A stretch of DNA of 64,000 nucleotides from Prauserella marina (lineage in GTDB: Bacteria > Actinomycetota > Actinomycetes > Mycobacteriales > Pseudonocardiaceae). Numbering within the stretch: position 1 is the stretch's first letter; the number at the start of each line of letters is the position of its first letter. Under the pieces are notes generated by a model. It saw nothing but the letters and a program-made list of their open reading frames with translations. It made no database searches and had not been told where the DNA came from. The stretch covers positions 5,743,001 through 5,807,000 of the forward strand of contig NZ_CP016353.1 of assembly GCF_002240355.1 (NCBI RefSeq). Direction: 5' to 3'. Made by a program: the position numbers and the translations under genes. Positions 22,691 through 37,501 of the stretch are shown here, piece by piece.

Positions 22691-22705
22691 ACGTTGAAGC
22701 GGAAC
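22691..22705. repeat. attL core, 15-bp direct repeat
   Basis: ACGTTGAAGCGGAAC is identical to 36423-36437. Read on the minus strand with its left flank it gives TTC CGC TTC AAC GTC TGA, that is F-R-F-N-V-stop, the end of YchF. So the left chromosomal flank still holds the original last codon and stop of ychF. Confidence 0.88.
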
Positions 22706-22794
22706 AAGTGGCGACCTGCGGGAACGCCCGGGTTTGCGGCCTGACCTGGGCGTTTCCCGCTCGTCGACGATGGTCGTTTGCCATGCTGGATGGG

Positions 22795-22818
22795 TGTCCT
22801 GACGAACGATTGACGAAC
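22795..22818. repeat. Left arm-type repeats, two TGACGAAC copies
   Basis: TGTCC is followed by TGACGAAC at 22800 and again at 22811, an 11-base period. The 24-base block matches 36352-36375 near the right end at 21 positions, same orientation. Position about 90 bases inside attL and the helical phasing suggest integrase or Xis arm binding. Confidence 0.65.
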
Positions 22819-23486
22819 AGCCTCAACGGCGACCATTACGAAGGGGCCTGCTTGACCAACGTCGCCGACCACGGATCGTTCTGATGCCGTTTCCGTGATC
22901 ATCGGTGTCTACCGTCGTCTGCCGACACCGGCTCTCACCTGCATCGACGCGACCGAACCATCCGTCGTCTTCCGGGACTGGCACGGGTCGTCTGCCATCG
23001 ATTATTGGCCATTCGCTGGCAAACTAGGTCGGCTTCGCGGCCGCGAAGTGCTCGCGGTGATAGCGGAGATCTGCCGGATCCAACCTCGTGGCCCGTCACC
23101 GTGCGGACAGACCGACAGCTCCCGGGCTGCGCCAAGTGGACTGAACCCCGGGCCACTTGAAACCGAAGATTCTCCGGCCACAGTTGACGATGCTTGATCA
23201 CATCTGCCGATATGCCTCATGAGCTGCAGGGATCGCGAACGCAAACGTCCACTAGGACCCGTCTTTTCCGGTCGTCTGGCGTCGTTCTTCGTGGGTAAAC
23301 TGTGGATTGATCTTGAAGGGAGCCACGGGCATTACTTCTGTTCTCCGCCTAGGAATAGCCTGATCTCCCTCCCATACCACATGATGGTCGCGGCCACACG
23401 AGTGCAATTCGCTCGACAACATGGCCACAATGTCACAATACTAAACAATTGCCACCGCGACGTACGCCCGCCGGTACGCTCTACCG
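22819..23486. other. Left-end non-coding region of the element
   Basis: About 670 bases between the left arm repeats and the first cargo gene. Short ORFs in several frames have no ribosome site, no family likeness and inconsistent codon use. It may be decayed cargo. Base use becomes AT-richer towards its right end, where the promoter of the three-TM gene should lie. Confidence 0.4.
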
Positions 23487-24416
23487 GTGCTTCTCATATC
23501 CCAGCTCCAGAAATATCACAGGGAGCGTAGGCAGCGAACCGGGGACGAGGCATGGACCGATGCCGCTACAAAGGAAGGCCCTCTCGACCACCTGTTACGA
23601 CACATAGGAGATCTCCTCATATTCATAACCCGAAGAATCTTTCAAAGGAAGTTTGTCTATCCAGAAATTGAAGTCCTACTACATTACAAAACCAGTCAAG
23701 CAGAAGTTGAACGCATCCACACTATGCTGGTCCAGCGAATAGCGGCCCCAAAAGCCCTGCTCCCCATCTTCGTTTTCACGATTGTCGCCGTAATGGCAAT
23801 TGTAGAACAAATCTTCGAAGAGACCGATATCACCGTCGTAGTCATGAGAGTTTTATTTTTCTCTCTTCTTATCATAGCTACCGTGGGATGGTCCATAACC
23901 TTATTCTCCACAACCCGTCTCCTCGTCGAAATCAAGTCATCGCTAAATTCACTCAACACACTGCGCCGGTCGCTATATCTGATGACGAACATACCGCACA
24001 GTAAAGCTCTCGGCATTCGATCTGAACGCGTGACAGCACGAACATTGCTACGACATTCAGCGCCGAAAATTATTAAATTCACAGCACGTTCAGCCAATCG
24101 TAAGCCAGGAGAACCCGGATTTGAGCAATGCACTCGGCTCGGAATTTGGATCTACTGGACAGCAGACGACGTTGACGACGTGTCGCGTATCCACTGCGCA
24201 ATCCGAGTAGCAAAACGAATGCTCTTTCATCTGATGGATTCGAATATTTGGGAAGTCCCCGAGATTCCCAAGCCTCCGAATGGCGCGAGGGTTCCCCCGC
24301 CCACAAAAATCCAGCGAATTAGAAACGGCTTGCGTCAGACCATCTACGCCGGCTTCGCCACGGCTCTCTTCGGTTTGGTCGCTGCCGTCTTCGCTTTTGC
24401 CACCAGACTGATCTAA
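23487..24416 (+). CDS. Three-TM cargo protein, unknown
   Basis: A 309-residue protein starting at GTG, with no clear ribosome site. A charged N-terminus (about 90 residues) leads to two adjacent helices, LLPIFVFTIVAVMAIV (near 92-110) and LFFSLLIIATVGWSITLF (near 124-142). A cytoplasmic part of about 140 residues follows, then a C-terminal helix ATALFGLVAAVFAFATRLI. Codon use is far more AT-rich than the host genes, so it came from another source. I recognise no family. Cargo position in a conjugative element allows a defence or entry-exclusion role, but nothing in the sequence proves one. Confidence 0.65.
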   Translation: MLLISQLQKYHRERRQRTGDEAWTDAATKEGPLDHLLRHIGDLLIFITRRIFQRKFVYPEIEVLLHYKTSQAEVERIHTMLVQRIAAPKALLPIFVFTIVAVMAIVEQIFEETDITVVVMRVLFFSLLIIATVGWSITLFSTTRLLVEIKSSLNSLNTLRRSLYLMTNIPHSKALGIRSERVTARTLLRHSAPKIIKFTARSANRKPGEPGFEQCTRLGIWIYWTADDVDDVSRIHCAIRVAKRMLFHLMDSNIWEVPEIPKPPNGARVPPPTKIQRIRNGLRQTIYAGFATALFGLVAAVFAFATRLI

Positions 24417-24680
24417 CGGAAGGAATTAGCCATCAAGGGGCCGTCGCGCTTTTGTTCATGATACTGCTTGCCGCCTCGAATACCGCTGGCTAACCATACT
24501 TCTGCTCTGTCGTGCAGGAATCTTGTCTCCAACAGCCAATACCGAAACTAGTGACGACTCCGCCAACCGGCCAACCGCACAATCCTCAAGGCTGCCGCGA
24601 CGGGTACTCCATGAATCGGACCTGTTTTTGCCGCATCAATCGATCTAGAACCGCCGACCATCGCTCCTTGAGGCTAGGAG

Positions 24681-24854
24681 CTACGACCTCTCCGAACGAG
24701 GGTTGTCTTTACGAGGCTCTACTTCGTCGTGAAGCTTCTCCAAAGCCATGAGCACCACGGCCGACAACGAACGCCGGGTCTGCTTGGCGTAGTCGGAAGC
24801 CCAGGTCCACAACCACTCGTCCGCCTGGCGCACGTAGACCACCTTGTCAACCAT
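24681..24854 (-). CDS. Small ribbon-helix-helix-like regulator, 57 residues
   Basis: A 57-residue ORF with AGGA upstream of its ATG. MVDKVVYVRQADEWLWTWASDYAKQ continues into TRRSLSAVVLMALEKLHDEV: a short N-terminal strand followed by two helices, the layout of CopG/ParG-like ribbon-helix-helix proteins. The tail is charged. It is divergent from a 146-residue ORF, and the gap between holds two palindromes, one overlapping its start, so it likely represses both genes. A plasmid-partition or antitoxin role is possible. Confidence 0.6.
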   Translation of the reverse strand: MVDKVVYVRQADEWLWTWASDYAKQTRRSLSAVVLMALEKLHDEVEPRKDNPRSERS

Positions 24855-24892
24855 AGGTCTATCCTGGTTTTACCTATGGAATACCTAGGTAT
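24852..24892. promoter_or_regulatory. Palindromic operator between the small regulator and the 146-residue ORF
   Basis: CCATAGGT (24852-24859) and ACCTATGG (24872-24879) form an inverted repeat, and ATACCTAGGTAT (24881-24892) is a perfect 12-base palindrome holding the same ACCTA element. All share the half-site ACCTA-GGT. The block overlaps the regulator start and precedes the divergent gene by about 46 bases. Confidence 0.6.
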
Positions 24893-24938
24893 GCCGGGGG
24901 TATGGTCGGATGAGCCAAACCGAACGGGGAGCACGTAA

Positions 24939-25379
24939 ATGCCCAGGCACGACACAGCCTTATACGAACTCGGCGGCCCGTCCTACGCGCCGCTCACAAG
25001 CTGGCAGTGGTGGACCATCTGGCAAGCACTCAGCAATCCAGACGACCACGCCAAGAACACCGAAGCCCTCGACCAACTCGGTGGACTAGTACAAGAAGAC
25101 TGGCTCGACTCCCTACCACCCGAACCCGGCGAAGGCCGAAGCCCGGAAGTCCTCGCCGCCATGTTCGCCGTCTACGACCAACACGAGGACACCTGGATCG
25201 ACCGACGATGCCGACTCACCATCGACGGCCTCCTACGCCTGCACTCCTCCGGCCGCCCATACCAACACCAAGAGCTCGACACCGCAGCCCGCATGCTGAT
25301 CACCACCGCCGGAGAACTCTTCCGCGTCTCCCAAGACCGCGCGAACCAGACAGAACGCGGCGACCGCCCAGAACCTTAA
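24939..25379 (+). CDS. Unknown element protein, 146 residues
   Basis: A 146-residue ORF with GGGGAG 8 bases before its ATG. It is acidic and helical in look, with a Trp-rich patch LTSWQWWTIWQALSNPDD (about 19-36) and ITTAGELFRVSQDRANQ near the end. Codon use is high-GC with C endings, like the transfer genes and unlike the flanking cargo. No membrane helix or signal peptide. It shares a palindromic control region with the divergent small regulator; a TA-like pair is one reading but untested. Confidence 0.6.
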   Translation: MPRHDTALYELGGPSYAPLTSWQWWTIWQALSNPDDHAKNTEALDQLGGLVQEDWLDSLPPEPGEGRSPEVLAAMFAVYDQHEDTWIDRRCRLTIDGLLRLHSSGRPYQHQELDTAARMLITTAGELFRVSQDRANQTERGDRPEP

Positions 25380-25539
25380 CGCCTGGTCGCGTGGCCTATT
25401 GCCGACAGCGAGACTGGGACTCATGGGGTCACACAAGGGTTCACCGGCGACCACCTAGAGCGAACCCGCAACGAGCTTTAAAGCAACCCCCGAGCACCTC
25501 TCCACCCCCTGAGCTGCGCAAACGTGCCGCGAGATGCTC

Positions 25540-25580
25540 GACTCTCATCCCCACTCTTAAGAACTGAGAGTCAAAGAGTG
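25540..25580. repeat. Interleaved inverted repeats upstream of the AlbA_2 gene
   Basis: GACTCTCA (25540-25547) pairs with TGAGAGTC (25565-25572), and CACTCTT (25552-25558) pairs with AAGAGTG (25574-25580). The two pairs interlock, so in RNA they could form a pseudoknot or exclude each other; in DNA they could be operator half-sites. They lie about 60 bases before the AlbA_2 ATPase start. Confidence 0.5.
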
Positions 25581-25640
25581 ACGCATATCACATCAGAACC
25601 TTCGCGCGTGAACTGATGGCACTTGCAATAGTTTAGAGTA

Positions 25641-27077
25641 ATGTCCATGACGGCGAACGAGGTTGAGGCTGCGCTATCGGCCGACCGTGCCGACGTGGGG
25701 CAGCATCTTCTAGGCGTACGAGAAGACCAGTGGTTCGAGCGCAAGAGTGTCAAGGTTGCGCCGAAAGACCTCGCACCCGCGTTGATAGCACTGGCCAACG
25801 CCGAGGGCGGCGTGATTGTCGTCGGCTTGCACGGCGGCAAGGTCGAAGGAACAAGGAGCCGCCGGGAAGTACTGAATGCATACCGACAAGCTCCGATAGA
25901 CTTTACCGCTCCACCTGTGAGAGCCGAATTCTCTGAAGTAGAATGTGTTAATGAAAAAGGCGAAGAAGACACGCTACTTTTAATTCGCGTCGACCCCGGC
26001 GAACGAGTACACGAAGCTAAAAATGGCGACTGCTTCCTGCGGATCGGCGATGAATCTCGTAAGCTAAACTTTACGCAACGACAAGAACTGGAATTCGACA
26101 AAGGGCAGAGCCAATATGATGGCTTTCCGGTGAGTGGCGTAACCCTTTCAAACCTGGATTCCGAACTCATATCGACGTACGTTCGATCAACTGGCGCAAA
26201 AGCGGATGTTCAAAATGTCCTAGCAGCTCGGAGTCTTCTGACAAGAACTGGAGAACTGACAAACGCTTGCTACCTTCTTTTTGGGAAGCAACCACAAGAC
26301 ATTTTTCCACAAGCCCACGTCAGAATCTTAAGATTCCTTACAGCCGAGCGTGGAACCGGATCCAGGCTCAACCTGGAAGAGGGTTCGGATATTCGCATGG
26401 AAGGCCCCATACCGGCCATCATTCAAAAAGCAAATAAAACAATTGAAAACCTTGTGCCCATGCGACGCACATTGACCGAGCAGGGCACCTTCGAAGGTCG
26501 GCCGATCGTACCTCGTGATGCGTGGCTTGAGGGATTGGTCAACGCGGTGATACACAGGTCCTACAGCCTTGCAGGTGACCACGTCCGGGTGGAAATATAC
26601 CCAAACAGGATAGAAATTGAAAGCCCCGGTCGATTTCCCGGCCTGGCAAACCCGCAGAAACCAATGGAGATTAGTCGCTTTGCGCGCAATCCCCGGATTG
26701 CGCGCGTTTGCGCCGACCTTCGCATTGGGCAAGAACTAGGCGAAGGAATAAAAAGGATCTTCGACGAAATGCGAAGGGTGGGACTCACTGATCCTGTCTA
26801 TAAACAAACAGCTGGAAGTGTGCGACTCACACTAACATCTGCCGCACGACTGGACCCGAGAATAGCCGCTCGCCTTCCTAGTGGTAGTCAACGAGTACTC
26901 GACGTTATGCGTGCGGCAGGCGCACCACTCGGAACAGGTGATATCGAGAGCGCTCTATCGCTTAGCAGGCCTGCGACCCTGACGCGACTGCGAGCGCTCG
27001 AAAAAGAAGGATTCTTACGCTGGGTGGGAAAGTCTCCACAAGATCCACGTGCGGTGTGGGAGCTACGTGACCACTAA
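25641..27077 (+). CDS. AlbA_2 (Schlafen-like) domain ATP-binding protein
   Basis: A 478-residue protein of the RNA-binding/RecG-like COG2865 group. Residues 25-140 form an AlbA_2 (AAA_4/Schlafen) domain: WFERKSVKVAPKDLAPALI, ALANAEGGVIVVGLHGG and FLRIGDESRKL. Residues 285-345 resemble the HATPase_c_4 domain: DAWLEGLVNAVIHRSYS and NRIEIESPGRFPG. The C-terminus looks like a winged helix (LSRPATLTRLRALEKEGFLRWVG). Codon use is mixed and AT-richer than the host, marking it as cargo. Such proteins act as regulators or, in some systems, in anti-phage defence. The start lacks a good ribosome site. Confidence 0.8.
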   Translation: MSMTANEVEAALSADRADVGQHLLGVREDQWFERKSVKVAPKDLAPALIALANAEGGVIVVGLHGGKVEGTRSRREVLNAYRQAPIDFTAPPVRAEFSEVECVNEKGEEDTLLLIRVDPGERVHEAKNGDCFLRIGDESRKLNFTQRQELEFDKGQSQYDGFPVSGVTLSNLDSELISTYVRSTGAKADVQNVLAARSLLTRTGELTNACYLLFGKQPQDIFPQAHVRILRFLTAERGTGSRLNLEEGSDIRMEGPIPAIIQKANKTIENLVPMRRTLTEQGTFEGRPIVPRDAWLEGLVNAVIHRSYSLAGDHVRVEIYPNRIEIESPGRFPGLANPQKPMEISRFARNPRIARVCADLRIGQELGEGIKRIFDEMRRVGLTDPVYKQTAGSVRLTLTSAARLDPRIAARLPSGSQRVLDVMRAAGAPLGTGDIESALSLSRPATLTRLRALEKEGFLRWVGKSPQDPRAVWELRDH

Positions 27078-27094
27078 ATCAACGCCCAAACGCC

Positions 27095-27248
27095 CGCTTG
27101 GTGGTCATCCCGTCGCCTGATGGCGTCTCGATCACGCCGTGTCGGGGCCGCGACCTCTGCTCGCCCACTGCCGGCCGAATTCGCCAAGCTCGCGGTCCCG
27201 GCTCGGTGTGATTGCCATCAGGTCAGGCGACGGGATGGCCACCAAGCG
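27095..27248. repeat. 26-bp inverted repeat with 102-base spacer
   Basis: The arms 27095-27120 and 27223-27248 are inverted copies differing at one base. The left arm begins CGCTTGGTGG and ends CCGTCGCCTGA. They lie in the gap between two convergent genes. This could be an origin, a recombination or transfer site, or the scar of a small insertion element; no transposase is present. Confidence 0.7.
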
Positions 27249-27329
27249 CCCACCCTGCCAACCGCACCGCGGCTACGTTCCCCGGCCATCCCGGAGCCTG
27301 CCCGTCCGGCGAGGACATGTTCTTTTCTT

Positions 27330-27477
27330 CTTGTTCAGCGCTCCCCTGCTGTCTTCGGCCTGCCTCGGCTCCGGCCGATGCGCGGGGACCGGCGTCAGCC
27401 GCACGCCCCGCGCAGGCTCGGCCGGAGCAAGAGAGGCTGAGGCCGAGCGGGCGCCGCAGGCGCCCGCCTTGAACAAG
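27330..27477. repeat. Nested stem-loops in non-coding DNA
   Basis: Three nested or adjacent stems occur: an outer CTTGTTCA (27330-27337) with TGAACAAG (27470-27477); GCTCCGGCCGA plus TGCGCGGGG (27368-27387) with its complement (27406-27428) and a 2-base bulge; and a 9-bp perfect stem with loop GCA (27447-27467). There is no T-run, so a plain terminator is not the best fit. Candidate transfer or single-strand replication origin of the element. Confidence 0.6.
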
Positions 27478-27518
27478 TAAAGAAACTCTGAACACAACGG
27501 CCATCGCGGCCAGGCTGG

Positions 27519-28193
27519 CTACTGGCGTTCGGGGATGAGACGGCTGGTGTATCCGGCTGCGATGAGGCGTTCGTAGGCGGCCTGGACGTCGGCGGGGATG
27601 TGTTGAGGTTCAATCTCGCCGGACCGGCCTTGGAGTTCGAGACGCTGAGTGTCACCAACGAGCATGTTCACCACGCGCTCTGGTTCACCGATGCTGTCGA
27701 CGTAGGTATCGAGGTCCTGTTGTGCGCCCGTACACAGGATTTCCACGTCTGGCCAGAGCTTGGCAGCGATCGCCTGTGCCCGTCGCTGTTGGTATGGGCG
27801 CGAGATCAGCAACACCGACTGCGGCGCAATGCCTTCCCCGGCAAGGAGTTCCCGGGTGAGGCTGATGTTCTCGACCGTGGTTTTCGCCTTGGGCTCGACG
27901 CGGATTGCTGAGTCGGGGACACCGTTGTCCATGGCGATTTCCCGAAAGTGGACAGCCTCCCCGCGAGGGAACCGCTCGACGGTTGTCGGCGCGTTGGCTC
28001 CGGTGAACACCACCAGCGGGAAGAGCCCCCGCCGGTACAGCTCTGCGGTATAGACCGCCACGCCTCCATCGTGACTGCCGAGACCTACCGCCACGTCGAC
28101 CTGCCGCAACTCGTCATCGAGCCGGTGAAACCGCCACAGGGTTTCAACATCGGCCCGCACGGCAGGCGGCCATGCCTCGACCTGGTCTGTCAC
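27519..28193 (-). CDS. YdcF/DUF218-like protein
   Basis: A 224-residue protein with the ElyC/SanA/YdcF fold: VAVGLGSHDGGVAVYTAELYRRG, VVFTGANAPTT, VEPKAKTTVENISLTRELL and SVLLISRPYQQRRAQAIA. There is no membrane anchor, unlike SanA. Start GTG with GAGGT upstream. It lies 12 bases after the GntR-type repressor on the same strand, so both form one operon. YdcF-like genes beside GntR repressors occur in actinobacterial elements, as I recall. Enzymatic function is unknown. Confidence 0.75.
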   Translation of the reverse strand: MTDQVEAWPPAVRADVETLWRFHRLDDELRQVDVAVGLGSHDGGVAVYTAELYRRGLFPLVVFTGANAPTTVERFPRGEAVHFREIAMDNGVPDSAIRVEPKAKTTVENISLTRELLAGEGIAPQSVLLISRPYQQRRAQAIAAKLWPDVEILCTGAQQDLDTYVDSIGEPERVVNMLVGDTQRLELQGRSGEIEPQHIPADVQAAYERLIAAGYTSRLIPERQ

Positions 28194-28205
28194 GTCGACC
28201 TCTAA

Positions 28206-28970
28206 CTAGTCCGGGATCGTAAAGTTGTACGTCCACGCAAAGCGCGATGCGGCATGAATCCCCACCGCGAACTCCACGGGCTCGTCCTGAGCCGTGAACG
28301 TGGTTCGGTGGAGCACCACGACGGGCTCCCCCGCCGGAAGCTCCAACACCTCGATTTCTTCCGGCGTCGGCATCCGCGCGTGGAAGGTCTCCGTCATGTG
28401 GTCAGGCTCTAGGCCCTGCAAGGTCAGCACGGCGAAACCTCCGCCCGGCGTCGCGGTTCCGGGTCTGGGGTCGACGATCGGGGTTCCCTCGACATGCTCG
28501 GGCCGGTAATAGCTCGTGAGCGTGTGCGTGGGTTGTCCGCCCTGCTTGACCAGACGTGCTCGCTCGTAAACCTCGGATCCCGACTCGACCCCCAAGGCCG
28601 TCGCGATGTCGTTGTCAGCGACCGCCTTGCGCACGGTGTTGGTCTGGTCGTCGCGTTTCCACGACTGCCCGGACGCCTCACGGTCGGCGGCGAACGCGAC
28701 GAGTCCGAACTTCCACTTGCTCTTTGCGTAGCGATCGGTGCCCAGCCGTTTCATCGGCGGTCGTGAGCGGACAACGGTGCCCCTCCGGCGAACCGCCGTC
28801 ACCAACCCCTCAGCCTCCAGGACACCTACGGCCTTGCGGACGGTGTTCACGTTGATGTCGTACTGGGCGGCAAGCTCGTCCTGCTTGGGTAGCGTGTCGC
28901 CGGGCTGGTACTTCCCAGCATGGATCTCGTCCCGCAGTACGGCGGCAAGTTCGCGGTAGCCGATGGCCAT
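28206..28970 (-). CDS. GntR-family repressor, KorSA-like
   Basis: A 254-residue transcription factor. The N-terminal winged helix is MAIGYRELAAVLRDEIHAG to VRRRGTVVRS (residues 1-70) with PKQDELAAQYDINVNTVRKAV as recognition region. A UTRA-type ligand domain fills 90-245 (ETFHARMPTPEEIEVLELPAG, VLHRTTFT). AGGAGG lies 6 bases before the ATG. In pSAM2, KorSA of this class represses pra and keeps the element integrated. Here it is divergent from a Pra-like gene with a perfect palindrome between, which supports the same job. Confidence 0.83.
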   Translation of the reverse strand: MAIGYRELAAVLRDEIHAGKYQPGDTLPKQDELAAQYDINVNTVRKAVGVLEAEGLVTAVRRRGTVVRSRPPMKRLGTDRYAKSKWKFGLVAFAADREASGQSWKRDDQTNTVRKAVADNDIATALGVESGSEVYERARLVKQGGQPTHTLTSYYRPEHVEGTPIVDPRPGTATPGGGFAVLTLQGLEPDHMTETFHARMPTPEEIEVLELPAGEPVVVLHRTTFTAQDEPVEFAVGIHAASRFAWTYNFTIPD

Positions 28971-29032
28971 GCCCCACCTCCTCTCTGGCGATTAAGCCTA
29001 TCTCTACCTGCGTAAACGTGTCATCTGAGTCT

Positions 29033-29090
29033 TTAGAACTATCTCTATTGACAGACTGTGGCACGCAGTGTTCAATAGAGATAGTTCTAA
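29033..29090. promoter_or_regulatory. 19-bp perfect inverted repeat, KorSA-like operator with divergent promoters
   Basis: TTAGAACTATCTCTATTGA (29033-29051) is exactly inverted at 29072-29090, spacer 20 bases. Another CTATCTCTA half-site lies at 28998-29006. TTGACA at 29048-29053 with TCAATA 18 bases on could be the plus promoter, and the mirror image TTGAAC/TCAATA serves the minus strand. The repressor would therefore cover both promoters. Confidence 0.75.
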
Positions 29091-29114
29091 ACGGGCAGAT
29101 ATGCGGAGGTTGAT

Positions 29115-29495
29115 ATGCGGAACATCCCGGTGAACCTGGGTGGCTTCAAGCTGATGGTGACGGAAGCCCCGGTGATGAAGATGCGCGAGGACGAGGGCGG
29201 GGAGCTCGTCCCGGCGACGGACTTCAACGGTGCGCAGCAGTTTGTGGTGGTGCTGTTCGCGAAGCGTCGGCCTCGTCCGGATGGTGGCCCGGTCGGCAAG
29301 GGTGAAGAGATCAAGGTGACGTTGTCGGCCGACCCAGGGGACGGGTTCGACGAAGGCACGTATGTGGAGCTGATCGACGCGACCACCTCGCCGTGGGCCA
29401 TGAAGGACAAGCAGGGCAACGTCAACTCCGGGATGTCGTTCCGGGCGGCCGGTTTGAAGCCTGCCGGGCTTGGCGCGACGACGGTTGCCGCCTAG
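29115..29495 (+). CDS. Pra-like activator of element replication, integration and excision
   Basis: A 126-residue protein with GGAGG 5 bases before ATG. It begins MRNIPVNLGGFKLMVTEAP and has FVVVLFAKRRPRPD, then VELIDATTSPWAMKDKQG and SGMSFRAAGLKP. The closing SPWAM-x-SG-x-SFRAAGL pattern matches small plasmid/AICE proteins annotated as replication, integration and excision activators (Pra), from memory. The divergent KorSA-like repressor and the operator agree. It should switch on rep, xis and int after repression is lifted. Confidence 0.65.
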   Translation: MRNIPVNLGGFKLMVTEAPVMKMREDEGGELVPATDFNGAQQFVVVLFAKRRPRPDGGPVGKGEEIKVTLSADPGDGFDEGTYVELIDATTSPWAMKDKQGNVNSGMSFRAAGLKPAGLGATTVAA

Positions 29496-29629
29496 TACCG
29501 GTTGATGGCCGGTGGGTGTCCGGCTCGCGCTAGTTCCCCCGCGTGGCGCGGAATCACCACCCTGGAGCGCTGCCCTAGTCGGTAGGCCGCCTGCGTTCGA
29601 GTCGGGCCAGCGCACTTCTCTTTTGTTCT

Positions 29630-29658
29630 TTGACAATTACAGAGTGGGCCGATCTATG
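29630..29658 (+). promoter_or_regulatory. Candidate promoter of the micro-ORF operon
   Basis: TTGACA (29630-29635) is followed after 17 bases by TCTATG (29653-29658). It lies in the 262-base gap after the Pra-like gene and about 100 bases before the first coupled micro-ORF. The -35 is perfect; the -10 is weak. Nothing else stands out in that gap. Confidence 0.45.
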
Positions 29659-30058: not shown

Positions 30059-30093
30059 TCAGGGGTTCGGTGAATTTCTTTGAGGAGGACGAA

Positions 30094-30550: not shown

Positions 30551-30553
30551 AGC

Positions 30554-30817
30554 ATGCAGATTTCGGTGTTGAATCGCCGCGCGCAGCAGAACTACGCCTC
30601 GTTCGTGGCGGCCATGGATCAGGTCGCGGAGCTGTTCGACGAGGTCGACAAGCTCATCGACGCACTCGATGAGAAAACCGCTCCGGGTGGGTTCACGGTG
30701 GCCACGCCGGAGGAGTTGCAGGCGTTGAAAGGTAAAGCGTTCGACGAGCTGGACCGGATGCGGGTAGTGGCCCGCAAGTACGAGGGAGAGCTGATCTCCC
30801 GGGACTGGAGGCTCTGA
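30554..30817 (+). CDS. Small acidic helical protein, 87 residues
   Basis: MQISVLNRRAQQNYASFVAA is followed by an acidic helical run, QVAELFDEVDKLIDALDEK, and ELQALKGKAFDELDRMRVVARK. Heptad-like spacing of hydrophobic residues suggests coiled coil. No membrane segment or known domain. One base separates it from the next gene. Confidence 0.55.
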   Translation: MQISVLNRRAQQNYASFVAAMDQVAELFDEVDKLIDALDEKTAPGGFTVATPEELQALKGKAFDELDRMRVVARKYEGELISRDWRL

Positions 30818-30818
30818 C

Positions 30819-31001
30819 ATGGCACACCAAGTGGACCGCGTCCTCAACGATCTCGACGCGGCAATGCTGCAACTCAAGAAGACCATGCACGGCATCCCGG
30901 TGCGCAAAGAAGGGTTCAAGTCCCATCACGACCGGGCCGCCCGCGCCATCGGCCGTCTCACGGCCGAACTCCAGGACGCCAGTGCCGCCATCAACACCTA
31001 A
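30819..31001 (+). CDS. Small helical protein, 60 residues
   Basis: MAHQVDRVLNDLDAAMLQLKK and DRAARAIGRLTAELQDASAAI read as two helices; the gene follows the 87-residue gene after one base. The two may be related partners. It is the last small ORF before a terminator-like hairpin and traB. No known family. Confidence 0.5.
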   Translation: MAHQVDRVLNDLDAAMLQLKKTMHGIPVRKEGFKSHHDRAARAIGRLTAELQDASAAINT

Positions 31002-31032
31002 CCCACACCTTCACCCTCAACGTTCTTCTTCG

Positions 31033-31081
31033 CGAGACCGGCTCCGCTTGCCCCTTCACCCGGGCATCGGGGCCGGTCTCG
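31033..31081 (+). terminator. Hairpin between the micro-ORF operon and traB
   Basis: CGAGACCGGCTCCG (31033-31046) pairs with CGGGGCCGGTCTCG (31068-31081), one mismatch, followed by TTCTGTCT. It lies 32 bases after the last small ORF and 25 before traB, so it would terminate or attenuate transcription into the transfer gene. Confidence 0.6.
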
Positions 31082-31105
31082 TTCTGTCTGAAAGGGACAC
31101 CATCC

Positions 31106-32473
31106 ATGAACACCCCTGATTCGAAACGCCGCACTGGCCGCGAAGTCAAAGCGCTCGCCTGGACCGTCCGGCACCCGGCCTCGGTCGGCACCCCTGCGGC
31201 GACCGTCGCGGCTGGGCTGGAGATCGGCTGGGCCACCACCGGCGGCATCCTCGGCGGCACCGCCATTGGCCTGTGCGCCTGGTACCGCGCTCACCCGGGC
31301 ACGTTCGATGCCTACGCGGCCCCGAGGATGCGGGCGTGGCGGCGTCGCTGGACGGTCTACCTCGGGCCTCGCTGGCACGCCGCCCTACGGGCCTGTGACC
31401 TGTACACGGTGCACCGCAAAACGGGGGAGGAACGCTTCCCTCGCATCATCCGCACCCGCTCCTACAGCCCCACCGTCGACACCCTGTGGCTCAAGATCCC
31501 GGCGGGGCAGCACGCCCGCCAGTTCGAAGCCCGCCTGCCCGAACTCACCGAAGCACTACGAGTGCAACGCATCGCCGTCGAACGCGTGAAACCCGGTGTG
31601 GTCGGGCTGGTCATCGAACGCAAGGAACCGTTCACCGAGGTCATCGAGGCCCCCGACATGCCCGCCGAGTCCGACGCGGTGAATCTCAAAGACCTCTACG
31701 TCGGCGAGACCGAATTCGGCGCCGACTGGCGCCTGGCGCTGCTGGGACAACACGTGTTCGTCACGGGCGCGACCGGCTCAGGCAAGAACTCGATCCCCAT
31801 GTCGTTACTGCGGGCACTGGCACCGATGATCCGGGACGGGCTGGTGCGGTTGTGGCTGTGTGACCCCAAACAGATGGAGTTCCGCACCCTCGCCCCGATC
31901 GCCTATCGCTACGCCGACACCGAAGCCGACTGCAACACCCTCATCGACGACTATGTCGACGACCTGCGCGCCACTCAACGCGCCTTCGCCGACAACGGCG
32001 CACGCAAAATCACTGTGTCCCAACAGACGCCGTTGAACCTGCTCATCCTCGACGAAATCGGCGCCCTGCTCGCCTACGGCGACAGCTCCATCTCACGCAA
32101 CCTGCGCAAACAACTGGCCATCGTCGGCTCGCAGGGCCGCGCCACCGGGCACGCCATGGTCGCCCTCGTGCAGGAACCCACCAAGGACACCGTCCCCATC
32201 CGGGAACTGTTCACCATCCGCATCTGCCTGCGTGTCACCTCTGCCGCTCACGTGGACATGGTGCTCGGCGAGAACGCCCGCCTACGCGGCGCCATCGCCG
32301 ACGAAATCCCCAACACCGACACCACCGCCGGAATCGGCTACGTCATCCGCCAACACACCCGCACACCCCTACGCATCCGCGCCGCCTACGTCAACGACAC
32401 CGAGATACAACACCTCGTCACCTTCGTCCACACCGGACAACCCGGCGGACACCTCACGACGGTGGCCTCGTGA
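31106..32473 (+). CDS. traB: TraB-type FtsK/SpoIIIE DNA translocase
   Basis: Main transfer protein of AICEs, 455 residues, moving double-stranded DNA between hyphae. Residues 30-60 hold two short hydrophobic stretches. The motor domain has Walker A at 221-229, GATGSGKNS, and Walker B LNLLILDEIGALL near 312-324, then RATGHAMVALVQEPTKD. The position after the catalytic Lys is Asn instead of Ser/Thr; streptomycete TraB proteins also deviate there (GKGS, from memory). C-terminal residues should read short direct repeats at the clt locus. Coupled by GTGA to the next gene. Confidence 0.85.
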   Translation: MNTPDSKRRTGREVKALAWTVRHPASVGTPAATVAAGLEIGWATTGGILGGTAIGLCAWYRAHPGTFDAYAAPRMRAWRRRWTVYLGPRWHAALRACDLYTVHRKTGEERFPRIIRTRSYSPTVDTLWLKIPAGQHARQFEARLPELTEALRVQRIAVERVKPGVVGLVIERKEPFTEVIEAPDMPAESDAVNLKDLYVGETEFGADWRLALLGQHVFVTGATGSGKNSIPMSLLRALAPMIRDGLVRLWLCDPKQMEFRTLAPIAYRYADTEADCNTLIDDYVDDLRATQRAFADNGARKITVSQQTPLNLLILDEIGALLAYGDSSISRNLRKQLAIVGSQGRATGHAMVALVQEPTKDTVPIRELFTIRICLRVTSAAHVDMVLGENARLRGAIADEIPNTDTTAGIGYVIRQHTRTPLRIRAAYVNDTEIQHLVTFVHTGQPGGHLTTVAS

Positions 32474-32694
32474 GCCGCCGTGAGGACGCCTACGCCGAAG
32501 TGATCCGGCTACTGGAAGCCGCAGAGTTCGAAGCTGGGGCGAACTGGTGCGATCTCGTCTGCCAGGACGCCGCACGCCGCCTGAACTGGACCGGTGACAT
32601 CGGCCCGGTCGACGACCCCGAATACGGGGCCGCGCTCCTGGCCTACAGCGCGATCACCGACGCCCTCACCATCGTGCGCCGGACCGGCGCCTAG
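32470..32694 (+). CDS. Small protein coupled to traB, 74 residues
   Basis: GTG start overlaps the traB stop. MSRREDAYAEVIRLLEAAEFE, NWCDLVCQDAARRLNW and ALLAYSAITDALTIVRRTGA are helical and neutral to acidic. No membrane helix. No known family; tight coupling suggests an accessory transfer role. Confidence 0.55.
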   Translation: MSRREDAYAEVIRLLEAAEFEAGANWCDLVCQDAARRLNWTGDIGPVDDPEYGAALLAYSAITDALTIVRRTGA

Positions 32695-32713
32695 ACCAGA
32701 AAGGAGCCCACCA

Positions 32714-32941
32714 ATGTTGACCCTGACCTTCTTGTGGACCTGGACCAAAATGACCGTGGCCACCGTGCTCGTGGTCGTGGTCGAACGCGCCGTGCTCACC
32801 GAGTTCTGGGTGGTCACCCCGGTTGTTGCCGTCACCGTGCTGGTGTGGGCGGCGCTGTGTGTCGGACTGTTCCGGGAATGGCGCACCCACGCCACCGGCC
32901 ACCGCCACCAGGTCACCGAATTCCGGCGGGAACACCTCTGA
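32714..32941 (+). CDS. Small two-helix membrane protein (Spd-like), 75 residues
   Basis: AAGGAG lies 7 bases before the ATG. LTLTFLWTWTKMTVATVLVVV and FWVVTPVVAVTVLVWAALCVG are two membrane helices, followed by a charged tail REWRTHATGHRHQ. Such proteins next to traB in AICEs are usually called Spd and widen transfer zones (pocks). Assignment is by position and topology only. Confidence 0.6.
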   Translation: MLTLTFLWTWTKMTVATVLVVVVERAVLTEFWVVTPVVAVTVLVWAALCVGLFREWRTHATGHRHQVTEFRREHL

Positions 32942-32975
32942 CGCCTGTGACAACAGCACACTAAGGAGCAACCAC

Positions 32976-33638
32976 GTGTCCACCCCGGACAGTCCGCCAC
33001 GGGCGTCACGCCTGGTGGACACCATCCGCGTCACCGTCGCCGTCATCCTCGGCGGCATCGGCGCAGCCGCCGGATTCACCCACACCCACGAATGGGCCAG
33101 CCACCACGGACAAACCGGCTGGCTCGCCTGGGCCACCGCCATCGTGATCGAAGGCATGGTCGTCGTCGCCGGATTCGAAGTCCAACGCGACCACCGCACC
33201 GGGACCACCCGAAAACTCACCTTCCCCATGGCCGTCCTCGTCGCCGGATTCGGCGTCCAAATGGCCGCCCAAGTAGCACTGGCCGAACCCAGCCCCGCCG
33301 GATGGCTCGTCGCCGCCATGCCCGCACTCGGCTTCCTCGTCGTCGTCAAACTCCTCATGCGCCGCACCCCACAACCAACCCCTGCTCCGGATTTGCCGGC
33401 CGAATCCCCGACCACGCCATCCGCGCAGGTCAGTACACCGGTATCGGGCACGTCCCCGCGGCTTCGCCTCCCAGCCCCGCTCACTGCCCGCTTGGACACC
33501 CTCACGACCGAAGCCCAGCAGACCGGGCGCGTCCTGACCACCGACGACATCCGGCAAGCCCTCAAAGTCCCCGAAGACATGGCCGCGCGCATCCTCGCCG
33601 ACCTCGCTCCCCGCAACGGACACCCCATCGCCACCTGA
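32976..33638 (+). CDS. SpdB-type membrane protein, DUF2637-like
   Basis: About 220 residues from the GTG at 32976, which has AAGGAG 7 bases upstream. The first 130 residues hold four hydrophobic helices, with THTHEWASHHGQTGWLAWA and IEGMVVVAGFEVQRDHR, the pattern of DUF2637/SpdB proteins. A Pro/Thr-rich linker (about 132-160) leads to a soluble C-terminal region with VLTTDDIRQALKVPEDMAARIL, like a small winged helix. It should act in intramycelial spread together with TraB. Confidence 0.78.
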   Translation: MSTPDSPPRASRLVDTIRVTVAVILGGIGAAAGFTHTHEWASHHGQTGWLAWATAIVIEGMVVVAGFEVQRDHRTGTTRKLTFPMAVLVAGFGVQMAAQVALAEPSPAGWLVAAMPALGFLVVVKLLMRRTPQPTPAPDLPAESPTTPSAQVSTPVSGTSPRLRLPAPLTARLDTLTTEAQQTGRVLTTDDIRQALKVPEDMAARILADLAPRNGHPIAT

Positions 33639-33654
33639 ACCGCTGACCGCGCCC

Positions 33655-33695
33655 AGCGGGACACGGCCAACCCACCTGGCTGTGTCCCGCTTTTT
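33655..33695 (+). terminator. Rho-independent terminator before rep
   Basis: AGCGGGACACGGCCA (33655-33669) pairs with TGGCTGTGTCCCGCT (33677-33691), one mismatch, 7-base loop, directly followed by a run of five T. It separates the transfer operon from the replication-recombination operon. Confidence 0.88.
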
Positions 33696-33725
33696 GTTGC
33701 GCCACAACGAAAGGGCTCCCTGTTC

Positions 33726-35081
33726 ATGACGTTGGAACAACGCCTCGCCCATCGAGTCCGCTCAACCGGCTACCTCGACTGGCGCGCCAAAGTCCACGCC
33801 GTCAACGGCTGCGCTCGCCCTGTCCGCCTCACCGGAGCGCACCAACTCCAAGACACCCGCACCGGAACCGTGTTGCATCACCACGGCGGGGACATCTTCG
33901 CCCCCTGCGGCAACCGCCGCTCCGCCGTCTGCCCCACCTGCTCCGACCGCTACGCCGCCGACGCGTTCCACCTCGTCCGCGCCGGACTCGTCGGCGGCAC
34001 CAAAGGTGTCCCCACCACTGTCACCGACCGGCCCCGGGCATTCGTCACCCTCACCGCCCCCTCATTCGGCCCCGTCCACCACGCCCGGACCAGTGCCCGA
34101 GGCAAGCGCATCCCCTGCGGCTGCGGCGAACACCACCACGACGCCGACACCCGCGTCGGCACACCCCTCGACCCCGAGGGCTACGACTATGTGGGGGCGG
34201 TGCTGTGGCAAGCCCACGCCGGAGTGCTCTGGCAGCGCTTCACCATGCGCCTACGCCGCGAGATCGCCAAACGCGCCGGAATCCGGGTGAGGGACTTCGT
34301 CACCGAAGCTCGCCTGTCCTACGGCAAAGTCGCCGAATACCAACGCCGGGGCCTCATCCACTTCCACGCCATCATCCGCCTCGACGGCCCCGAAGGCGCC
34401 ACCACACCCCCACCCACCTGGGCACACCCCGATCTTCTAGACGACGCCATCCACGCCGCCGCTGGCGCGGTGGTCTTGAACGTGTCTCGCCCGGACGGCA
34501 CCACGGACACGCTCACCTGGGGCACACAGGTCGACGTCCGCGCGATCCAGCCCAGTGGTTCCGCGGAGTTCGAGACCCGCGACGGGCAGATCAGCGAAGA
34601 ACGACTCGCCGCCTACATCGCCAAGTACGCCACCAAAGGCACAGGTAAGACCGAGGCCGCCGACCGTCCCATCCGATCGCAACTCGACATCGACTTCCTC
34701 AAGGTCTCCGAGCATCACCGGCGGATCATCCAAACCGCTTGGGACCTCGGCGACCTGCCCATGTATGAGGAGCTGAACCTGCGGCGCTGGGCACACATGC
34801 TCGCCTTCCGAGGCCACTTCCTCACCAAATCCACCCGCTACTCCACCACCTTCAAAACCATCCGAGGCGACCGCAAAACCTTCCGGCTGACCGAAACCCT
34901 CGCCCGCCTCGGACTCACCGACCAGGCCGACACCATCGCCGTAATCAACGACTGGACCTTCCACGGCGCCGGATACCGCGACGACGCCGAACGCGAACTC
35001 GCCACAGGCATCGCCACACGCATCCAAGACGACCGCAAGACCAAATACGCCAACGAATACGCAAAGGAACAACACCCATGA
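33726..35081 (+). CDS. repSA: Replication initiator, RepSA type (HUH endonuclease)
   Basis: A 451-residue rolling-circle initiator as in pSAM2. CPTC near residue 70 and CGCGEHHHD near 131 are Cys/His sites for zinc. HFH at 212-214 (RGLIHFHAII) is the HUH metal site, and LAAYIAKYATKGTGK carries Y297 and Y301, candidates for the nicking tyrosine. It nicks the double-strand origin so the excised element can replicate. ATG with AAAGGG 9 bases upstream; the stop overlaps the excisionase start. Confidence 0.85.
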   Translation: MTLEQRLAHRVRSTGYLDWRAKVHAVNGCARPVRLTGAHQLQDTRTGTVLHHHGGDIFAPCGNRRSAVCPTCSDRYAADAFHLVRAGLVGGTKGVPTTVTDRPRAFVTLTAPSFGPVHHARTSARGKRIPCGCGEHHHDADTRVGTPLDPEGYDYVGAVLWQAHAGVLWQRFTMRLRREIAKRAGIRVRDFVTEARLSYGKVAEYQRRGLIHFHAIIRLDGPEGATTPPPTWAHPDLLDDAIHAAAGAVVLNVSRPDGTTDTLTWGTQVDVRAIQPSGSAEFETRDGQISEERLAAYIAKYATKGTGKTEAADRPIRSQLDIDFLKVSEHHRRIIQTAWDLGDLPMYEELNLRRWAHMLAFRGHFLTKSTRYSTTFKTIRGDRKTFRLTETLARLGLTDQADTIAVINDWTFHGAGYRDDAERELATGIATRIQDDRKTKYANEYAKEQHP

Positions 35082-35251
35082 ACAAACTACTCACCGTCGA
35101 CGAACTCGCCGACTACCTCAACATCCCCAAAAACACCCTCTACCAATGGCGCACCAAAGGCTACGGACCCACCGGCGTCCGCATCGGCAAACACGTCCGC
35201 TACCGCGCCGACGACGTCGACACCTGGATCGAACGACAAGGAGCCATCTGA
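35078..35251 (+). CDS. xis: Excisionase, MerR-like helix-turn-helix
   Basis: A 57-residue DNA-binding protein: MNKLLTVDELADYLNIPKN, TLYQWRTKGYGPTGVRIG, HVRYRADDVDTWIERQ. This is the Xis/HTH_17 fold, recognised by LTVDELADYL and the YGP-G-IGK turn. ATG overlaps the rep stop (ATGA), and its TGA overlaps the integrase ATG. With integrase it directs excision; it likely binds near attL or attR. Confidence 0.88.
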   Translation: MNKLLTVDELADYLNIPKNTLYQWRTKGYGPTGVRIGKHVRYRADDVDTWIERQGAI

Positions 35252-36390
35252 TGGCCAGCATCCGGAAGCTTCGGGATGGCCGATACCAAGCCCAGTACCG
35301 TCCTGTTCCTGGCGGCAAACAGATAACCAAGACCACGAAGAAGAAGGTGGATGCCCAGCGTTGGCTGGACGAACAGCTTGCGTCGGTCGTCACAGGTAAC
35401 TTCGTGGACCCGAAGGCTGGGAAGGTTTCGTTCCAGACCTACTTCGGGAGGTGGGCAGAGCGGCAACTGTGGACGACCGGCACTCAACGAGCGATGACAT
35501 TGGCTGTCTCCTGCACAACGTTCAAACACCTGCCGCTGAACCGCATTCAGCGCTCGCACATTGAGTCATGGGTCAAGCACCTTCAGACTCTCGACCGTGG
35601 AGAGAGCCGTAAGCACGGTCTGGCGCCAGGGACCATCCGGACACGCTTCAACAACGTGCGCTCGGTTTTTCAGGGCGCAGTGCGGGATCGGCTGATCGCC
35701 GCTGACCCCTCGAAAGACGTACGGCTTCCGCGCACGCGCCGGGCCGACGTCGCAATGACACTTCCGACACCTCGTCAGGTGGCGCGGCTGCTTGCCACAG
35801 CAAGCCCGCGTTTCGGGCCATTCGTGGCGCTGTGCGCCTTCGCAGGGCTGAGGCTGGGTGAAGCTGCGGCACTGAAGGTCTCAGACCTCGACTTCGAGAG
35901 CGGCAGTATCACCGTCGCTCGGCAGGTCCAACGAGAGAACGGGGGCGGAGTGGAGATCCGATCACCCAAGTACGGCTCCGAGAGAACGGTGTACGTGTCA
36001 GATGAGCTGCTCTCGCTCGTGCAGGTTTATCTGGAGACATACCGGCCAGCCGGAAAGCCGGACCGCTGGGTGTTCGAGGGGTCAGCCGGTGACCCGCCCC
36101 ACCAGAACACCGTGGGTTACTGGTGGCGACGCACGCGCGCAGCGGCTGCCTGTGACGACCTTCGTCTTCATGATCTTCGTCATTTCTTTGCGTCTGGTCT
36201 AATCGCGGCCGGTTGCGATGTGGTCACCGTCCAACGAGCCCTAGGCCACTCCAGCGCAACGGTGACGCTTAACACATACGCGCACCTATGGCCGAGTGCG
36301 GAGGACCGCACCCGGCTGGCGTCTGCCCGGTTGTTTGTCGACGTTGTCGGTTGTCCTGACGAACAGGTGACGAACGAGCGGGCAGCTTAG
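35251..36390 (+). CDS. int: Tyrosine integrase of the element
   Basis: A 379-residue site-specific recombinase. The N-terminus (MASIRKLRDGRYQAQYRPV) is the AP2-like arm-binding domain, 60-150 the core-binding domain. Catalytic residues: R201 (AGLRLGEAAAL), H307 and R310 (LHDLRHFF), H333 (LGHSS) and Y343 (NTYAHLW). AAGGAG lies 7 bases before ATG. Its stop lies 32 bases from the attR core, the usual neighbourhood. The last codons contain the right-hand arm repeats, so coding and binding sites overlap. Confidence 0.93.
   Translation: MASIRKLRDGRYQAQYRPVPGGKQITKTTKKKVDAQRWLDEQLASVVTGNFVDPKAGKVSFQTYFGRWAERQLWTTGTQRAMTLAVSCTTFKHLPLNRIQRSHIESWVKHLQTLDRGESRKHGLAPGTIRTRFNNVRSVFQGAVRDRLIAADPSKDVRLPRTRRADVAMTLPTPRQVARLLATASPRFGPFVALCAFAGLRLGEAAALKVSDLDFESGSITVARQVQRENGGGVEIRSPKYGSERTVYVSDELLSLVQVYLETYRPAGKPDRWVFEGSAGDPPHQNTVGYWWRRTRAAAACDDLRLHDLRHFFASGLIAAGCDVVTVQRALGHSSATVTLNTYAHLWPSAEDRTRLASARLFVDVVGCPDEQVTNERAA
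36352..36375. repeat. Right arm-type repeats, two TGACGAAC copies
   Basis: TGACGAAC at 36357 and 36368, 11 bases apart, after TGTCC; 21 of 24 bases match the left block at 22795-22818 in the same orientation. They lie within the 3' end of int, about 50 bases from the attR core. Confidence 0.65.
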
Positions 36391-36418
36391 GGCTCAGAGC
36401 TGGTAAGACAGGTCTTAT

Positions 36419-37501
36419 TCACACGTTGAAGCGGAACTCCACCACGTCGCCGTCGGCCATGATGTAGTCCTTGCCTTCCATCCTGACCTTGCCTGCCGAC
36501 CTCGCGGCGGCCATCGAACCCGCCTCGACGAGATCATCGAACGACACGACCTCGGCCTTGATGAACCCGCGTTCGAAGTCGGTGTGGATCACGCCAGCGG
36601 CCTGCGGCGCGGTGGCGCCCTGCGGGACGGTCCACGCCCTCGCTTCCTTCGGCCCCGCGGTCAAATAGGTCTGCAAGCCCAGCGTGTGGAACCCCGCCCT
36701 GGCGAGCGCATGCAGCCCCGGCTCCTGTTGACCGACGGACTCCAGCAGCTCACGCACCGACTCCTCGTCGTCGAGTTCGAGCAGTTCGGCCTCGACCTTC
36801 GCGTCGAGGAAGACGGCGTCGGCCGGTGCGACCAGCTTGGCCAGTTCGGCTCGTTTGGTCTCGTCGGTCAACACGCCCTCGTCGGCGTTGAACACATAGA
36901 GGAACGGCTTCGCGGTCAGCAGACTCAGCTCGCGCAATCCTTCGAGGTCGACCTCTCGCTGCGCGGAGAACAGCGTCCGCCCCTCGTCGAGGATGTCCTT
37001 CGCGCGCTGCGCGTTCTCGAAAGCAGGCCGCAGATCCTTCTTCGTCCGGGCCTCCTTCTCCATCCTCGGCAGCGCCTTGTCCAAGGTCTGGATGTCGGCG
37101 AGGATCAGCTCGGTGTTGATCGTCTCCACGTCGCCGAGCGGATCGATCTTGCCGTCGACGTGGATCACATCCGGATCGTCGAACACCCTGATGACCTGGC
37201 AGATCGCGTTCGCTTCCCGGATGTTGGCGAGAAACTTGTTGCCAAGTCCCGCCCCCTCCGAAGCGCCTTTCACGATGCCCGCGATATCCACAAAGGACAC
37301 CGTCGCGGGAACGGTCTTGACGGAGGAGAAGAGCTCCGCGAGCTTGTCCAGTCGCGGATCGGGCAGCGGGACGACACCGACGTTCGGCTCGATCGTCGCG
37401 AACGGGTAGTTCGCCGCGAGTACGTCGTTGCGCGTCAGCGCGTTGAACAGGGTGGACTTGCCGACGTTGGGCAGGCCGACGATTCCGAGGGTCAGACTCA
37501 C
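36419..37501 (-). CDS. ychF: Redox-regulated ATPase YchF (OLA1 family)
   Basis: A 360-residue Obg-like P-loop protein that prefers ATP and binds ribosomes. G1 GLPNVGKSTLFNAL near residue 8, switch DIAGIVKGASEGAGLG near 70, NADEGV in place of NKxD near 205, and a C-terminal TGS domain (TYLTAGPKEARAWTVPQGATAPQAAGVIH, split here by my reading) ending VVEFRFNV. Length is normal although the final codon and stop come from the integrated element. It converges on int with 28 bases between the stops. Confidence 0.95.
   Translation of the reverse strand: MSLTLGIVGLPNVGKSTLFNALTRNDVLAANYPFATIEPNVGVVPLPDPRLDKLAELFSSVKTVPATVSFVDIAGIVKGASEGAGLGNKFLANIREANAICQVIRVFDDPDVIHVDGKIDPLGDVETINTELILADIQTLDKALPRMEKEARTKKDLRPAFENAQRAKDILDEGRTLFSAQREVDLEGLRELSLLTAKPFLYVFNADEGVLTDETKRAELAKLVAPADAVFLDAKVEAELLELDDEESVRELLESVGQQEPGLHALARAGFHTLGLQTYLTAGPKEARAWTVPQGATAPQAAGVIHTDFERGFIKAEVVSFDDLVEAGSMAAARSAGKVRMEGKDYIMADGDVVEFRFNV
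36423..36437. repeat. attR core, 15-bp direct repeat in ychF
   Basis: ACGTTGAAGCGGAAC forms the last codons of ychF on the minus strand (F-R-F-N-V). The valine codon is finished, and the stop provided, by element DNA: GTG TGA here against GTC TGA at attL. A dyad TAAGAC-AG-GTCTTA at 36404-36417 stands just inside. Confidence 0.88.

Follow-up and report, generated by a model that had tools for sequence, protein, structure and literature searches.

A divergent pSAM2-type element of Prauserella marina with a predicted attachment site in the 3′ end of the protein gene ychF

Introduction

How can a mobile element insert into a conserved protein-coding gene and leave the encoded protein unchanged? 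We address this question for a 13.7-kb element at 22691–36437 of the window, a stretch of 64,000 nt of Prauserella marina (contig NZ_CP016353.1; positions below are window coordinates), which abuts the 3′ end of ychF. An earlier sequence-only reading had proposed an actinomycete integrative and conjugative element (AICE) at this place, bounded by a 15-bp repeat. According to our analysis, it is very probable that the element is an AICE of the RepSA/FtsK type with a tyrosine integrase (Int) whose chromosomal attachment site (attB) consists of the last ~15 bp of ychF, encoding F-R-F-N-V. This reading builds on the observed anatomy of the element, its repeats, the repaired reading frame of ychF and the recurrence of the Int family at this gene. 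The vast majority of tyrosine-integrase AICEs reside in the 3′ ends of tRNA genes, the pSLS integrase subfamily being excepted, as stated in a survey of 144 AICEs from 2011 (PMC3218068). The element studied here would add a conserved protein gene to the AICE attB sites, and judging from the genomes seen this target should exist in most actinobacterial hosts.

Results and discussion

Gene content and ends of the element

The exact 15-bp repeat and the set of genes with Pfam matches between its two copies uphold the assignment of 22691–36437 to the AICEs. The features of the element and of the adjoining ychF are as follows.

22691–22705, no strand: attL core, the displaced ychF tail (GTC TGA on the minus strand), exact 15-bp repeat
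22800–22818, plus strand: left arm-type repeat pair TGACGAAC-N3-TGACGAAC (window motif search)
25641–27077, plus strand: AlbA_2/Schlafen and RecG-C-like protein, cargo (Pfam)
27519–28193, minus strand: DUF218 protein (Pfam)
28206–28970, minus strand: GntR-UTRA regulator (Pfam), which we take to resemble KorSA of pSAM2
31106–32473, plus strand: FtsK/SpoIIIE-type DNA translocase, Tra (PF01580, 3.7e-10, 40.1 bits, above the gathering score)
32823–33638, plus strand: DUF2637 protein (PF10935, 6.7e-10)
33726–35081, plus strand: RepSA replication initiator (PF20199, 4.5e-149)
35078–35251, plus strand: Xis, 57 aa (HTH_17 and excise profile matches)
35251–36390, plus strand: tyrosine integrase Int (PF00589, 7e-25, scanned from 35245; the open reading frame runs from 35146, and the start was set by homology alignment)
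36357–36375, plus strand: right arm-type repeat pair, within the 3′ end of int (window motif search)
36423–36437, no strand: attR core, the present ychF tail (GTG TGA, its end coming from the element), exact 15-bp repeat
36419–37501, minus strand: ychF, 360 aa, open (Pfam YchF-GTPase_C, 3.5e-39; open reading frame)

The element thus carries a transfer protein of the FtsK/SpoIIIE type (PF01580), a RepSA-type replication initiator (PF20199) and, at one end, a tyrosine integrase with a neighboring Xis, and it is flanked by direct att repeats. By this gene content (Int, Xis, RepSA and FtsK-type Tra) its identity as a predicted pSAM2-type AICE is confirmed, and its transfer is predicted likewise. 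Insertion into the 3′ end of a tRNA gene, a usual but non-defining trait of AICEs, does not apply, as ARAGORN detected no tRNA gene in the 64-kb window. The stop of xis overlaps the start of int, and int adjoins ychF, with the two genes being convergent.

Repair of ychF at the insertion site

The repeat ACGTTGAAGCGGAAC is present without mismatch at 22691–22705 and 36423–36437. Read on the minus strand, both core copies continue as TTC CGC TTC AAC GTN TGA, and the identity between them spans G TTC CGC TTC AAC GT. As claimed before, valine and stop are encoded by GTC TGA in the left, displaced copy and by GTG TGA in the right copy on the ychF side, where the gene ends with GAG TTC CGC TTC AAC GTG TGA and the protein with DVVEFRFNV. 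The 15 bp are short, and one could suspect a chance repeat in an element whose ends lie elsewhere. When up to two mismatches were allowed, however, ACGTTGAAGCGGAAC had three matches in the 64 kb, compared to a mean of 0.12 in shuffled sequence, and three matches were reached in none of 100 shuffles. Like joints also recur in relatives (see below) and refute a coincidence, which we regard as ruled out by these two lines of evidence. The third match, with two mismatches, is at 19225 and is discussed with the left flank.

We propose that Int recombines attP with the ychF tail and that the crossover falls within the shared 15 bp, so that ychF upstream of it would be untouched. The element end on the int side would supply the last base of GTG and then TGA, which keeps ychF whole and the protein unchanged, while the old tail with GTC TGA would be displaced to the far end. 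That the element repairs ychF with its own valine codon end and stop had been suggested before, and the repaired frame as well as independent relatives at the same site bear this out. The left flank had also been said to retain the original ychF end; this holds for the state just before the insertion, but that end may itself stem from an earlier insertion. Binding of Int is presumed at the core and at the TGACGAAC pairs close to the two element ends, and Xis should drive an excision that would restore ychF with GTC TGA; transfer of the excised element would be expected as well. That such a site works in a wide range of hosts, like tRNA genes, would be explained by the conservation of the YchF C-terminus among the genomes seen.

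Relatives of the element at ychF within the family

A DNA search with ychF covered 60 genomes, including that of P. marina, and had matches in all of them; two (G014 and G046; G numbers denote family genomes) matched by short stretches only, with ychF itself unseen, and G030 and G048 matched partially. For 20 of the 60 genomes, 19–20 kb (12 kb in one case) containing ychF and the DNA downstream were compared by blastn, tblastx being too noisy in this GC-rich DNA. A protein search with Int in 249 family genomes (E ≤ 1e-60) retrieved six genomes, again including the own one, and in all six the integrase was located beside a ychF tail. It was found directly at ychF in G000, G001, G135 and G143 and at a displaced tail in G028; in G177 it lay at a tail copy, with no ychF on the 19 kb examined.

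Elements at this site differ in their completeness. G143 contains another AICE with RepSA, Tra, Xis and Int at ychF (11.1 kb), and G135 showed matches to Tra, Xis, Int and GntR and none to RepSA. In G001, from the same genus as P. marina, a copy of the P. marina integrase that has lost part of its N-terminus adjoins ychF; a block resembling the left end of the element (90% over 136 bp) follows 4.2–4.4 kb away, and a weaker second copy of this block (75%) at 2.9 kb indicates that the G001 insert is composite. In G028, a different insert of 10.5 kb comes first, followed by a broken relative of the element with a 90% left-end block. The left-end similarity of 90% runs up to the core in both G001 and G028. 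Two further genomes of the genus are G002, with an altered ychF end and a 74% left-end block 5.1–5.2 kb further on, and G003, where ychF ends with GTG TAG, no sign of the element was found and similarity resumes after 2059 bp, at window position 18340.

The frequent decay at this site lends some support to the notion that the element of P. marina is a dead remnant, of which selection keeps just the intact ychF end: Int of G001 is incomplete N-terminally and a search there for seven other element proteins found none of them, Int of G028 is broken, and that of G177 has two stops. In the window, by contrast, the reading frames of Int, Xis, RepSA and Tra are uninterrupted, their domain matches exceed the cut-offs, and neither att side is damaged, which makes a remnant unlikely.

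The window contains exactly two paired repeats of the type TGACGAAC-N3-TGACGAAC, one near each element end (22800 and 36357); a third match has three mismatches. Arm-type repeats with the same 11-bp spacing were looked for at both element ends in G001, G135 and G143 and at the far end in G028. G135 and G143 have them on both sides, G001 on the int side and G028 on the far side, each time no more than 260 bp from the end, against a background of 8 in 245 stretches of the window. The far end of G001 had no such repeat. We suggest that the TGACGAAC pairs are putative arm sites of the integrase.

The integrase family across Actinomycetota

A scan of the genome_contigs collection with five aligned Ints yielded 251 relatives, and all counts of loci given here refer to the best 80 of these 251. 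Two of the 80 duplicate genomes of the family set, namely L061 (Saccharopolyspora spinosa, G135) and L065 (Prauserella cavernicola, G001). At 42 of the 80 loci, ychF was located 27–289 bp from the end of the Int match and was convergent with int; at 13 it lay 1.5–8.3 kb away, and three loci were at a contig edge. Hosts with an adjacent ychF include Amycolatopsis, Microtetraspora, Actinomadura, Nocardiopsis, Micromonospora, Geodermatophilus, Blastococcus, Nocardioides, Terrabacter, Kocuria, Mycolicibacterium and Rhodococcus. The encoded tail EFRFNV-stop is kept at 54 of the 55 ychF loci, with the exception of L081 (FRHS-stop). A motif like GCAGGTCA (at most one mismatch, at most 45 nt from the stop, position free) was present at 30 of the 42 adjacent and 12 of the 13 near loci, and at 2 of 30 control loci, which were taken from the ychF search and include the window and G001, both element carriers without a match. 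In an Int tree, built by a quick method and containing several long branches, the label “ychF-adjacent” was clustered, with 10 changes compared to a mean of 27.0 after shuffling (0 of 500 shuffles). Most close relatives of Int are thus found beside a ychF tail, and these sequence data suggest a ychF-using integrase family that is spread Actinomycetota-wide and has ychF as its commonest place among the relatives examined. The earlier view of ychF as an unusual target does not apply to this integrase family (6 of 6 family genomes; 42 of 80 loci plus 13 near ones).

In the DNA upstream of the 80 Ints (up to 10 kb per locus), RepSA was found at none and Tra at one (1e-6); most Int relatives are therefore not shown to be AICEs. 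Pfam and PHROG scans of 99 open reading frames upstream of int at 14 of the 80 loci did not single out one clear type of element, judging by the 25 families displayed. The phage collection contained no Int match at 1e-40. The same held for plasmids, where 141 records matched at 1e-10, all with <60% identity and the 25 displayed with ≤30.3%.

Several results weigh against our interpretation of the element and its target. The NCBIfam equivalog model of RepSA scored 468 bits, under its cut-off of 700, and the NCBIfam TraB model matched at 1e-5 only, also under its curated cut-off, so that the element has to be regarded as a divergent member of the AICEs. Moreover, 22 of the 80 Int relatives are elsewhere or at unassigned sites, even if int adjoins a core of the ychF-tail type in two of them, L117 and L128. 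Nor do the users of ychF form one clade, as the starred branches of the tree force at least five changes. Finally, the exact empty junction of ychF with GTC TGA and the sequence left of 22691, which had been predicted for relatives, was seen in no genome examined; G003, which looks empty, has GTG TAG instead. The region 18.4–22.69 kb had no match in three same-genus genomes, and no listed DNA match to 18400–22690 in the 249 family genomes reaches the end at 22690. The absence of the empty junction can be attributed to the left flank of 4.3–4.7 kb, which is itself variable.

A second AICE with a different integrase in the same genome

P. marina contains a second AICE at ~2.539–2.552 Mb of C1 (L186:12449–13837 and L200), whose RepSA is 94% identical to that of the window. 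It is flanked by exact repeats of 73 bp, 12.5 kb apart, which start within tRNA-Pro(GGG) and span the 3′ end of this gene. At the DNA level, the two elements share 87.5% identity over the block from RepSA to Xis, with patchy similarity elsewhere, and the similarity ends at window position 35255, where xis stops and int starts. The two Xis proteins differ at 8 of 57 residues (49 of 57 identical, counted manually), and the Ints are only 29% identical. This break at the xis/int junction between elements with distinct Ints implies that int and att behave as an exchangeable unit; on the sequences compared, such a unit looks exchangeable between AICEs. The closely similar pair, with ychF and tRNA-Pro as respective targets, makes an exchange of specificity directly testable, including the case of one Xis serving two distant integrases.

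Comparison with known systems

The element resembles pSAM2-type AICEs in its RepSA, FtsK-type Tra, Xis and Int beside one att site, its direct repeats and its position at a gene 3′ end; it differs from them in its target, the protein gene ychF, where tRNA genes predominate in the excerpts of the survey (PMC3218068). A parallel case is AICE03 of Streptomyces RLB3-6, described in 2022, in which the integrase switches between rlmN and tRNA-Val and the excisionase diverges too; the same study lists 14 insertions in protein-coding genes, including rlmN and a glycosyltransferase gene (PMC9513070). Common to both cases are related backbones with different integrases at a protein and a tRNA gene, and both show accretion as well as decay where elements share a site. 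In AICE03 the excisionase diverged along with the integrase, whereas the P. marina genome keeps Xis and changes int and att, and the target is ychF. In pneumococci, a satellite resides in the intergenic region upstream of ychF (PMC10383233), and a prophage attB lies between the gene of a DUF951 protein and ychF (PMC8637289). These insertions are also site-specific and beside ychF; unlike in the P. marina element, no repaired coding 3′ end is described in the excerpts of either paper. YchF otherwise appears, in the excerpts seen, among the gene products of a Staphylococcus prophage clade (PMC8460829) and as a tree marker (PMC13046425). The excerpts of PMC3218068 and PMC9513070 do not mention ychF, and the main texts of PMC12884075 and PMC10654092 have no occurrence of it. 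In the open-access literature searched, we found neither integration into the 3′ end of ychF nor an earlier description of the divergent AICE at this protein-gene attB, although supplementary tables and site databases may list the site. For genetic tools, the ychF tail would provide a place of integration in a broad range of hosts.

The variable left flank

The DNA between 19225 and the element has the following features.

19225–22690, no strand: variable left flank, outside the AICE (blastn, Pfam)
ending at 19225, no strand: interrupted Doc-type frame, 105-aa piece with the terminus EFGFNG-stop (no Pfam family)
19565–19762, minus strand: Phd-like, named by position only (no Pfam family)
20241–20843, minus strand: GNAT (GNAT, 5.3e-37)
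20809–21477, minus strand: AbiEii (AbiEii, 1e-9)
21679–22221, minus strand: AbiEi-like (AbiEi_4, 24.5 bits, just under the cut-off of 25)

The AbiEi part was matched in one of the 249 genomes (G187, whose ychF was not located). Genes similar to the Phd-like and Doc-type frames directly follow ychF in other family members, the Phd-like one 37 bp past the stop in G182 and 70 bp in G159, which supports the left flank as a region downstream of ychF. We surveyed the Doc termini in 15 relatives matching the Phd-like gene. In G167 and G134, the terminus of Doc is EFRFNV-stop and coincides exactly with a second copy of the tail; Doc ends with EFCFNV-stop in G151, with EFGFTV-stop in G026, where Doc matches Fic/DOC, and with a more diverged tail-like end in G213 and G083; all six cases are downstream of ychF. 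Eight of the 15 relatives lack a tail-like Doc end, seven of these also being near ychF, and in G232 a Doc with the terminus VFRFGA-stop is not near ychF. Possibly, a displaced ychF tail was captured by the cargo gene doc. We give about even odds to a history of two or more insertions in which 19225 marks a ychF tail displaced earlier and the AICE came last; given the counterexample in G232, a mere chance match at 19225 also has to be reckoned with.

The 19225 copy could alternatively be the true, now degenerate, old ychF tail of a larger composite unit made up of the AICE and the left flank. Its match to the core with two mismatches would fit such a unit, as would the AbiE pair and Phd/Doc-type genes in 19225–22690, which resemble the tail-bounded inserts of relatives, and the Doc proteins of G167 and G134 that end exactly with EFRFNV-stop at the second tail. 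Yet the 90% similarity of the left-end block to G001 and G028 stops at the exact core at 22691, with the arms just inside. The sequence at 19225 also encodes the end of a Doc-type protein, and one Doc of that type, in G232 (VFRFGA-stop), is not near ychF. We consider a composite unit rather improbable and retain 22691 as the left end of the AICE. Phd/Doc-type pairs after ychF with a Doc terminus equal or similar to the ychF tail were noted at window positions 19225–19762 and at L187, L188, L195 and L199.

Tail arrays and defence genes at the ychF 3′ end

Two or more copies of the tail pattern GARTTYCGNTTYAAYGTNTRR are present in 16 of the 249 family genomes (manual count; two at contig ends). 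In the 14 genomes where the copies were located, neighboring tails are mostly 0.7–4.5 kb and in few cases 5–109 bp apart (one substitution allowed). Arrays reach up to five tails in G095, where four further tails follow an altered ychF end; G172 has three further tails. The following loci represent the small inserts bounded by tails and the defence genes between int and ychF.

L140–L147, L187–L190, L037, L038: small tail-bounded inserts
L067:14136–17821, L079:11370–14910, L115:11228–12946, L066:4737–6323: defence genes between int and the ychF att site

None of the 14 small inserts matched either Int of the P. marina genome at 1e-3, which does not exclude other integrases. Next to ychF, where the arms would be expected, none of them had a repeat with 11-bp spacing, although 2 of the 14 have one further in. 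Open reading frames were listed for ten inserts, and six proteins from five of them were scanned: matches were to Fic, HipA, Abi_2 and AbiEii (1.1e-4), and of a neighboring pair, one member had a helix-turn-helix match only and the other no family. Where ychF lies 1.5–8.3 kb from int (Nocardioidaceae, Intrasporangiaceae and Georgenia), ten intervening proteins from 7 of the 13 loci were analyzed with PADLOC. GajA and GajB were identified in Janibacter melonis, IetA and IetS in Nocardioides psychrotolerans, AbiU in Aeromicrobium and a ThiF/E1-E2 protein in a Nocardioides metagenome-assembled genome, with the other four proteins lacking a match. The Janibacter element also carries a TrwC relaxase, HsdM/HsdS and GmrSD.

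The ychF 3′ end is a recurrent insertion hot spot with accretion, and not the site of a one-off event. More tentatively, it might be a docking site throughout Actinomycetota, a protein-gene counterpart of the tRNA site occupied by differing element types and by small inserts mobilized in trans that form arrays; we regard this extension as conceivable rather than probable. Its residents would differ in their type of transfer: besides RepSA AICEs, they would comprise an element that has a TrwC relaxase and carries defence genes in a slot separating int from att. Small inserts of defence or toxin-antitoxin type, lacking an integrase of this family, would be stacked there too. Every insertion would give ychF a new tail, and a displaced tail could become the C-terminus of cargo, as in Doc with EFRFNV-stop. 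Movement of the small inserts would rely on ychF-using integrases acting in trans, probably of another family than that of the window Int because none of the 14 shows arm repeats at the usual place. The ychF 3′ end could serve as a single address for seeking mobile phage-defence genes.

Altered YchF C-termini were observed at L006 (G002), L009 (G026), L025 (G025), L081 and L190 (G095), with ends such as FRHGGTSSSKK, FRHNTTSASKK and FRHS. In G002 and G026, the old tail or a tail-like sequence lies a few kb downstream of the altered ychF. Insertions seem to alter the YchF C-terminus in G002, G026, G025, L081 and G095. Other ychF ends are recoded synonymously (for example GAATTCAGATTCAATGTATAA), namely at L013/L036 (G028), L145 (G172) and L187 (G167), which suggests insertions of a different type whose crossover lies further upstream.

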